From Parapedobacter pyrenivorans (GTDB lineage: Bacteria > Bacteroidota > Bacteroidia > Sphingobacteriales > Sphingobacteriaceae), in contig NZ_BMER01000001.1 of the NCBI RefSeq assembly GCF_014636865.1, forward strand, positions 2,034,718-2,098,717: 64,000 nucleotides of DNA. Direction: 5' to 3'. The notes beneath the pieces are model-generated. The model was not told the DNA's origin and did no database searches. It was given only the letters and a program-made list of their open reading frames with translations. The position numbers and the translations under genes are program-made. This document shows, one piece after another, positions 22,493 through 23,708 of this stretch. Positions within the stretch are counted from its first letter, which is position 1. Every line of letters begins with the position of its first letter.

Positions 22493-23089
22493 TTAGAATA
22501 GCCGATAGCCTACTCCGATAGTCCAGAGATTTACTTTCTGTGGTGCGGCGTCGTTTTTGCTTAACTCGCTCAATCCATGTTCATAACGCGCATCAATGCG
22601 GAAATTACTGATGTCGAGGCCAAGACCACCTGTCACCGCCCAAGCTTGGTTTTTATATTCACTGAATTCAGGAACCTGTGCCAATGCATCACCGATATTT
22701 TTATCGACAACAAATGATACAACAGGGCCTGCAACGATACGTAATCCGGCAGGGCCTAAGCCAATGCGGGTACCCAAGAGCAATGGAAGATCTAATGAAG
22801 TAAAGGTCACTTTACCTTCTTCATTTTCTTCGACCAATTTCGCTTCAGAACTCTTCCCCGTCAAATAAAGCTCAGGTTGGAAGTGCACTCCCGCACCGCC
22901 GATGCGTGCCCATACACCCGCTTGATAGCCCGTACGCGTACTTGCATCCAACCAATTGCCATCTTCCGACTTTAAGTTTGAAAAGTTAAGACCAGCTTTG
23001 ACACCAAACTGGAAACTAGGTAGCAGCTGCGCATTTGCCCCTAAAATAGTTGATGTTACTAATAAAACAACGATAAGGTACTTTTTCAT
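22493..23089 (-). CDS. Outer-membrane beta-barrel protein (porin-like)
   Basis: The product is a 198-residue protein with a signal peptide ending at about residue 20 (ILGANAQ). The rest has the alternating strand pattern of an eight-stranded barrel of the OMP_b-brl_2/PorT-like type: FQFGVKAGLNFSNL, YQAGVWARIGGAGVHFQPELYL, LDLPLLLGTRIGLGPAGLRI, and the C-terminal WTIGVGYRLF ending in an aromatic residue, as outer-membrane insertion requires. It is a single gene with its own terminator. Function probably structural or transport; no ligand known. Confidence 0.88.
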   Translation of the reverse strand: MKKYLIVVLLVTSTILGANAQLLPSFQFGVKAGLNFSNLKSEDGNWLDASTRTGYQAGVWARIGGAGVHFQPELYLTGKSSEAKLVEENEEGKVTFTSLDLPLLLGTRIGLGPAGLRIVAGPVVSFVVDKNIGDALAQVPEFSEYKNQAWAVTGGLGLDISNFRIDARYEHGLSELSKNDAAPQKVNLWTIGVGYRLF

Positions 23090-23230
23090 GACATATTATT
23101 TTTTAGCGTTTAATGTTGGGCTCTTAAATGCCCTGTGGAGACAACAGCAAAATTCAAGCCGAAATTGTCGCTAGACGTCGCTTAGGATGTATCTGGGCCT
23201 CATTTGGGGTTTTATTATGCTTGGTTTAGG

Positions 23231-23422
23231 GTTTACTTACCTTTCATTTACCACGTTGGTAAGCAAAAGGTAAGGAATAGGTAAGGAATAGGTAAAGAAT
23301 AGGTAAGCAAAAGGTAAAGAACAGGTAAGGAAATGGTAAGGAACCGGTATAGAAAAAGTAACGGAAGACTAAAGAAGCACTAGGGGAGTGGTAAGCAACA
23401 GGTAATGTTCTGGTAAGCTACA
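23231..23422 (+). repeat. Array of fifteen 11-bp repeats plus two inverted units
   Basis: The gap 23090-23483 has no gene. It holds fifteen 11-bp units in perfect register from 23258 to 23422, consensus GGTAAGGAAYA (units 1-9 and 13 match best, 10-12 and 14 are worn). Two units in the opposite orientation precede them (23231-23241 and 23242-23252) across a 5-base spacer (acgtt). The inverted and first direct units can fold into a 17-bp imperfect hairpin. All three forward frames contain TAA, so it is not coding. The 11-bp period is about one helical turn, so the units face the same side of the DNA. It ends 13 bases before the -33 box of the CsbD-like gene. Confidence 0.85.
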
Positions 23423-23435
23423 CCAATCAATAAAC

Positions 23436-23466
23436 TTGTACATCAGGGCAACTTTAGCTAAATTTG
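23436..23466 (+). promoter_or_regulatory. Promoter of the CsbD-like gene
   Basis: TTG (23436-23438), 20 bases, then TAAATTTG (23459-23466) match the Bacteroidota -33/-7 consensus. The stretch GCAACTTTAGCTAAATTTG (23448-23466) is nearly identical to that before superoxide dismutase. Confidence 0.7.
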
Positions 23467-23483
23467 CCGCAAATCAATGGCAT

Positions 23484-23699
23484 ATGGCAGACATCAAGAT
23501 GACTTCCGACGAATGGGAAATATTGAAACAAAAGTTTCGCCGTAAATATAATCACCTTTCGGATCATGACCTGGCTTTTGAACAGGGTAAAGAAGAAGAG
23601 CTGATCGGCCGTTTGGCCCAACGTGTGAAGCGCAAACGTGACTACGTCGTGTTCACGTTAAAAAAAGGACTGGCGGATTTGGAAAGTAATCGGCTTTAA
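23484..23699 (+). CDS. CsbD-like general stress protein
   Basis: This small charged protein of 71 residues starts at the ATG at 23484 (MADIKMT), directly after a good promoter. The pattern W-x2-LK-x-KF-x2-KY-x2-L-x-D-x-DL-x3-QGKEEELIGRL matches the CsbD family, small helical proteins made in stress (a role known from Bacillus). The C-terminal half (KRKRDYVVFTLKKGL) is more basic than usual. It shares a promoter element with superoxide dismutase and has the 11-bp repeat array upstream. Confidence 0.7.
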   Translation: MADIKMTSDEWEILKQKFRRKYNHLSDHDLAFEQGKEEELIGRLAQRVKRKRDYVVFTLKKGLADLESNRL

Positions 23700-23708
23700 T
23701 ACGTGTTG

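Follow-up and report, generated by a model that had tools for sequence, protein, structure and literature searches.

The window, the whole stretch of 64,000 nucleotides of the Parapedobacter pyrenivorans genome analyzed here, contains a phased repeat array in the intergenic region between two divergent genes, one for an outer-membrane beta-barrel protein and one for a small conserved protein. The features of the region are as follows.

22493..23089, minus strand: gene for an outer-membrane beta-barrel protein, on the divergent side of the array (OMP_b-brl_2, E 3e-18)
23214..23257, minus strand: left arm of the array, with two clear reversed units (23236-23257, centre included) and two degenerate ones farther out
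23253-23257: 5-bp centre, ACGTT, counted within the left-arm stretch
23258..23422, plus strand: right arm of the array, 15 forward 11-bp units with consensus GGTAARSAAWW
23436..23466, plus strand: presumed promoter of the 71-aa gene, with TTG at 23436-23438 (-33), 20 bp, and TAAATTTG at 23459-23466 (-7)
23484..23699, plus strand: gene for a conserved 71-aa protein adjoining the array, with matches in 27 of the 41 genomes searched

The boxes at 23436-23438 and 23459-23466 fit the consensus of a Bacteroidota-type promoter. The gene behind them had been called CsbD-like in a first-pass annotation of the sequence; the 71-aa protein has no confident Pfam family, and neither it nor two orthologs matched the CsbD model at E up to 10, so this identity was rejected. 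A known phage or plasmid origin of the array was likewise rejected, as positions 23150-23440 gave no blastn match in either the phage or the plasmid collection. The repeats in eight viral contigs matched by a stricter pattern are unrelated.

Read in lines of 11 bases, the array has the build first described for it: 15 units in unbroken register with no base gained or lost, a 5-base centre, two reversed units (CTTACCTTTCA and TTTACC), and 13 bases between the array end at 23422 and the TTG of the -33 box. The grid continues weakly leftward (TTTAGG, ATTATG), and a conserved block upstream of the outer-membrane gene, GCAAAATTCAAGCCGAAA, sits to the left of the array. TRF finds this as the sole tandem array within the 64 kb, with fitted periods of 11, 22, and 44, and a four-unit pattern allowing up to three mismatches matches nine times, against 0.00 expected from 100 dinucleotide shuffles. 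Three units of the right arm are of other types, AGTA in unit 10 and ACTA in units 11 and 12. Relaxed B-DNA makes a turn in about 10.5 bp, and 11-bp units would drift by about 17 degrees each on such DNA; the earlier suggestion that one unit equals one helical turn, placing all bound proteins on one face, is thus not exact. A period of 11 bp is usually associated with negatively supercoiled DNA (PMC4132750).

Searching the genome of origin and its relatives for the unit, as the first-pass annotation had proposed, revealed a family of such arrays. The genome itself (5.9 Mb, 11 contigs) carries six, at C1:8231, C1:224745, C1:1337583, C1:2057975 (the window array), C2:45939, and C4:128363; the pattern matched 29 times on the forward and 37 times on the reverse strand, against 0 and 2 for a backward-pattern control, and two isolated three-mismatch places were dropped. 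Two loci on contig C1 of this genome, G000 (L061 and L063, near 8 kb and 1.34 Mb), are closely similar to each other, each with a wHTH gene, an array, and a DUF6266 gene; their flanks are similar too, and their arrays differ mainly in the middle units. Across 41 genomes, the GGTAA pattern with at most one mismatch matched in eight, comprising six of the nine Parapedobacter genomes (G000 to G008), a genome from another genus of the same family (G022), and G018, where the locus (L087) has four units and no reversed arm and was dropped; the control search over the same 41 genomes gave one match, in G002. There are no GGTAA matches in G001, G007, and G008 and up to six arrays in the others, and 2 to 6 arrays were retrieved per genome. 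The one-mismatch search undercounts, having missed the array between ribD and prmC in G004. A wider collection scan, read at 80 of at least 117 loci, shows arrays with no clear centre but GGTAA units in Pedobacter terrae and Longitalea, whereas the TACC-N5-GGTA centre is visible in arrays of Pedobacter suwonensis, Pedobacter ginsenosidimutans, and Niastella caeni. Among the loci read, matches outside the Bacteroidota looked unrelated.

Nearly all arrays read share one anatomy. Among 27 arrays (the window array and L061-L086), 26 have at least two reversed units in register (three of four letters or better), followed by TACC-N5-GGTA and a long forward arm; the sole exception, L072, has no reversed units. 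In a profile of the 23 arrays of the genus (L072 and L084-L086 omitted), the reversed arm is strong as far as unit 4, where TACC is perfect in 13 of 23, and no longer at unit 5, where it is perfect in none. The forward arm weakens gradually, beginning near unit 9 and ending near unit 18; these figures describe the GGTAA class, the left arm of a second class with a TCGAA core (see below) having fallen out of register in the profile. Forward-arm counts range from 5 to 25 units, by a lenient measure that overruns at the long end. Over the 404 units of the 27 arrays, each base of GGTA has an information content of 1.2-1.7 bits, as against 0.4-0.9 for positions 5-9 and 0.14 and 0.06 for the final two, with part of the core conservation built in because the arrays were found by GGTAA. 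The odd units recur as well: AGTA occurs in 15 and ACTA in 10 of the 27 arrays, and other variants in at most 4 (in-register units 6-17, no shuffle control). The units that had been read as worn look like recurring types instead.

Two arms opposed around a 5-base centre might also act as an RNA or as an extruded cruciform hairpin. Placing opposed units in register gives their spacers no extra complementarity (identity 0.388, against 0.365-0.423 when slid), so the arms are unpaired beyond the core, and positions 22900-23700 have no Rfam match at E 1; this explanation was rejected as having practically no chance of being correct.

At the window site itself, the array has no counterpart in the congeners. 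In all eight congeners it is absent from the 350 bp read upstream of the orthologous 71-aa gene, and within 600 bp upstream none of them has more than one GGTA per six 11-bp steps, as compared to six in the window. The outer-membrane gene on the divergent side is retained in seven of the eight, G006 being the exception, and the flanks are too diverged among congeners to show a target-site duplication. An old array at this site, as had first been suggested, is therefore not supported; it is either a later arrival or the remnant of many losses, and the simpler of the two is arrival in this lineage. Nor is there support for a dedicated enhancer of the downstream gene, since G007 and G008, read by eye, have the same promoter boxes and spacing with no array there, and sister arrays lie beside unrelated genes. 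The first-pass annotation had taken absence of the array, or random copy-number noise at no kept position, in all close relatives as a refutation; the window position is not conserved, but positions of other family members are, as illustrated by two gaps.

The first of these gaps, between an erpA-like gene and ileS, holds a GGTAA array in G000, G003, G004, G005, and G006, an 11-bp array with a TCGAA core in G001, and no array in G002, G007, and G008. The second, between ribD and prmC, was read in G000, G001, and G003-G005 and holds arrays in G000, G003, and G004 and none in G001 and G005. The two spellings also share the gap between an MmcQ-like gene and dnaK (GGTAA in G002, L067; TCGAA in G001, L296) and the region upstream of the S1 gene (GGTAA in G003, L070; TCGAA in G001, L303). 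NCBIfam models back IleS, RibD, PrmC, DnaK, and ribosomal protein S1, while those for ErpA and MmcQ were below cut-off. At two shared sites, identity is 51/52 and 60/66 in the core, 80/103 and 60/112 in the spacer, and 84/192 and 81/170 in the flank, a rough comparison of two ortholog pairs in which the core was defined on the first sequence and the prmC pair is partly misaligned.

The number of units varies between species at a shared gap, which is the part of the earlier proposal of a length-variable (VNTR) switch that stands; there is no sign of a length switch. An ordinary minisatellite grown by slippage, perhaps serving as a length switch for the 71-aa gene, would account for this variation and for the TRF fits at 22 and 44, but slippage alone does not make a reversed arm, and arrays of other genera and at unrelated sites repeat this anatomy. 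There is also a second class of 11-bp arrays, whose core is different. We consider a minisatellite highly improbable.

The pattern TCGAA-N6 repeated four times, with at most two mismatches, matched 170 times in G001, 37 in G008, 26 in G006, 25 in G005, 14 in G002, and 4 in G000; there were no matches in G003, G004, and G007, and the control gave 0 in all nine genomes. The matches read exclude those of G000 and most of those of G008. TCGAA arrays lie at no fewer than 19 places in G001, and in 14 of 18 aligned on one another (the other four have no recognized centre and were omitted from the alignment), the arms meet at a conserved centre around GCAA....TTGC, and similarity falls off with distance from it. 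Five TCGAA arrays (L279, L280, and L281 in G006, L283 and L284 in G005) have a common right-hand flank and are found upstream of genes whose products resemble TonB-receptor-type proteins by eye, and solo TCGAA arrays in G001 (L287, L297) adjoin genes that, also by eye, look rimP-nusA-like and rplC-like.

Many arrays of both classes directly follow a gene for a small wHTH protein. Our searches gave 20 wHTH hits (8 of type 1, 10 of type 2, and 2 further homologs), 13 with an 11-bp array directly downstream and 7 without. Type 1, a wHTH protein of 98-100 aa, is followed directly by a GGTAA array in six of eight copies; the copy in G007 has none, and at the fourth copy in G000 (L095) a weak 11-bp signal is not above that at 10. 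Seven of the ten type-2 hits have an 11-bp array, which is of the TCGAA class after all five complete close copies and one fragment and reads TTCGR in G022; the two further homologs have no 11-bp array downstream. The G005 genome carries both pairings, type 1 with GGTAA and type 2 with TCGAA. At a contig end in G002 (C49, L314/L278), a type-2 fragment without its wHTH part runs straight into a TCGAA array. Two distant type-2 genes are followed by repeats of another kind, which were excluded from the array counts. In G007 (L310) these are 21-bp repeats arranged in blocks of 189 bp over about 1.1 kb, with several open frames and probably coding; in G008 (L313) they are imperfect 21-bp repeats that cover about 600 bp directly after the gene.

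The pairing has its exceptions. G002, G006, and G022 have GGTAA arrays with no type-1 match at E 1e-10, and G007 has type 1 with no GGTAA array, so a strict dependence of GGTAA arrays on the type-1 protein was rejected. In G001, the sole type-2 match is distant and has no array within 1.5 kb, despite the many TCGAA arrays of that genome. In Pedobacter, the wHTH protein adjoining a GGTAA array is type-2-like rather than type-1-like, and the match between protein type and core therefore fails outside the genus.

The first gene on the far side of the array encodes a DUF6266 protein in L061, L063, and L073 and in all five complete type-2 cases; in L079 a small gene intervenes, in L075 the DUF6266 gene is farther away, and in L065 none was seen. 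The array also precedes DUF6266 in Niastella caeni, and the order in Pedobacter suwonensis is wHTH, array, DUF6266, an unassigned protein, and an endolysin-like protein (L137:6504-7064; phrog_9589, E 1e-17). At 11 wHTH-array loci, 79 proteins (two of 81 reading frames were omitted) matched 31 families at E 1e-5, with DUF5675 frequent (5 of 79) and no transposase, integrase, or other recombinase among the best 25 of the 31. PADLOC candidate-defence models each match single proteins near the cassettes.

These neighborhoods bear on two further explanations. The arrays could be a passively dispersing, MITE- or REP-like repeat family, whose window copy has no regulatory role. Such a family would leave copies beside unrelated genes and an empty site in all eight congeners, as observed, and it would suit the likeness of L061 and L063 down to their flanks, the position-specific consensus on which 14 of 18 G001 arrays align, and the rather sharp end of the reversed arm. 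However, the G001 arrays lose their similarity gradually toward the outside, inspection of their alignment by eye showed no target duplication, the families just mentioned include no mobilizing enzyme among their best 25, register and centre are rigid, and the core is better kept than the spacer at two shared sites in the rough comparison above. We give passive dispersal perhaps one chance in four's worth of credence, an unlikely but serious alternative. Alternatively, the arrays could anchor a nucleoid or chromosome-organizing protein rather than act as gene operators; they are few, long, and phased, are spread over several contigs, and in some cases, such as L080, lie between convergent genes. 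Their repeated association with the wHTH and DUF6266 setting, and the range of GGTAA matches from none in three genomes to six arrays, make anchoring improbable.

The linked wHTH proteins are 92-157 aa long and have N-terminal extensions. Type 1 matches HTH_17 (E 1e-5) and MerR (E 2e-4) in Pfam, both below cut-off; the Pedobacter suwonensis protein matches HTH_17 above cut-off, and three of four type-2 members tested match it weakly (E 4e-4 to 4.5e-3), with no match in the fourth. The two best PDB matches of the type-1 profile, 6AMK (E 0.008) and 6AMA (E 0.011), are weak and are both BldC-DNA complexes; type 2 gave no BldC match. PHROGs classes the type-1 and Pedobacter proteins as excisionase-like (E 8e-5 and 1e-5). 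As an alternative to the wHTH protein, a LytTR regulator could bind the arrays: LytTR regulators and histidine kinases occur at several Parapedobacter array loci, but no LytTR regulator was found among eight proteins of the Pedobacter suwonensis locus.

We favor, with a probability of roughly 60%, the reading that the window array is a solo copy of a dyad-organized operator array, a putative cooperative binding platform for a BldC-like wHTH protein. Among the earlier options, a binding array for a regulator is the best supported, given the conserved GGTA, the arms unpaired beyond it, and the wHTH neighbors type-matched to the core. Arrays of this build, usually with about four reversed units, a 5-bp centre, and a forward arm mostly of 10-20 units of 11 bp, are carried by Parapedobacter, Pedobacter, and Niastella, and their apparent home is a cassette in which the array has the BldC-like gene for a small wHTH protein on one side and the DUF6266 gene on the other. 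Most likely, one wHTH subunit would bind each GGTAA, with neighbors in head-to-tail contact, and a filament would start at the centre and grow over the long arm. The centre, together with the short reversed arm, may be where filaments nucleate and extend in both directions. In this species' lineage, the solo copy would have come between the divergent promoters of the outer-membrane and small conserved genes and, if active, probably brings both under the influence of the wHTH protein.

Blocks of direct repeats of about 11 bp each are also found in the parC iterons of ParMRC plasmids, where a small bound protein forms a helical array; those form a plasmid centromere with an adjacent actin-like gene. 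The working principle of a wHTH filament on direct repeats is already known. BldC of Streptomyces, a MerR-like wHTH protein with no effector domain, binds direct repeats at whiI and smeA-ssfA cooperatively and head to tail; the number of repeats varies, and the protected tracts at smeA-sffA are described as lying one helical turn apart (PMC5859096). The type-1 profile matches its two DNA complexes, if weakly. The BldC sites described are 9-bp AATTXXXX(C) repeats, and the complexes measured contain two to four subunits (PMC5859096), whereas the present arrays have a period of 11 bp, a GGTAA or TCGAA core, a far larger number of units, and a short arm in reverse orientation, and their wHTH proteins are longer, with an N-terminal extension. 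RdfS, an oligomeric wHTH excision factor with an extra N-terminal helix, forms filaments, for which a head-to-tail mode was modelled (PMC11963761). The excisionase-like PHROGs calls recall RdfS, but RdfS is described as having no apparent consensus motif (PMC11963761), and the wHTH-array loci differ in having no recombinase among the best-matched families.

The nearest printed phenomenon we found is a set of TAACTGA direct repeats that lie between genes in Beggiatoaceae, Cyanobacteria, and five Bacteroidetes (PMC4679880). As described there, these heptamer arrays are likewise dispersed and lineage-specific, some lie upstream of the S1 gene, and the gaps have no obvious repeats in some close relatives; they differ in having 7-bp units, mostly just before start codons in the main genome, and in being read as translational, and neither a reversed arm nor a linked wHTH gene was found in that description (PMC4679880). 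Among the open-licence PMC papers searched, there is no description of long phased arrays built around a fixed centre, of such arrays being dispersed, or of two wHTH-paired spellings at the same places.

Filament-forming wHTH proteins have so far been known to use direct-repeat operators at short sites, and here the arrays are long and phased, with solo copies in the vicinity of core genes, among them ileS, dnaK, and the S1 gene. It is possible, and we propose it only tentatively, that the whole operator-array set of a genome changes its spelling with a wHTH protein, the arrays being rewritten in concert or the sites re-invaded. If this hypothesis is correct, the arrays would be a natural experiment in which a DNA-binding protein and its many dispersed sites change specificity together, and if the wHTH reading holds, a likely regulator would be named for the unstudied DUF6266 genes.
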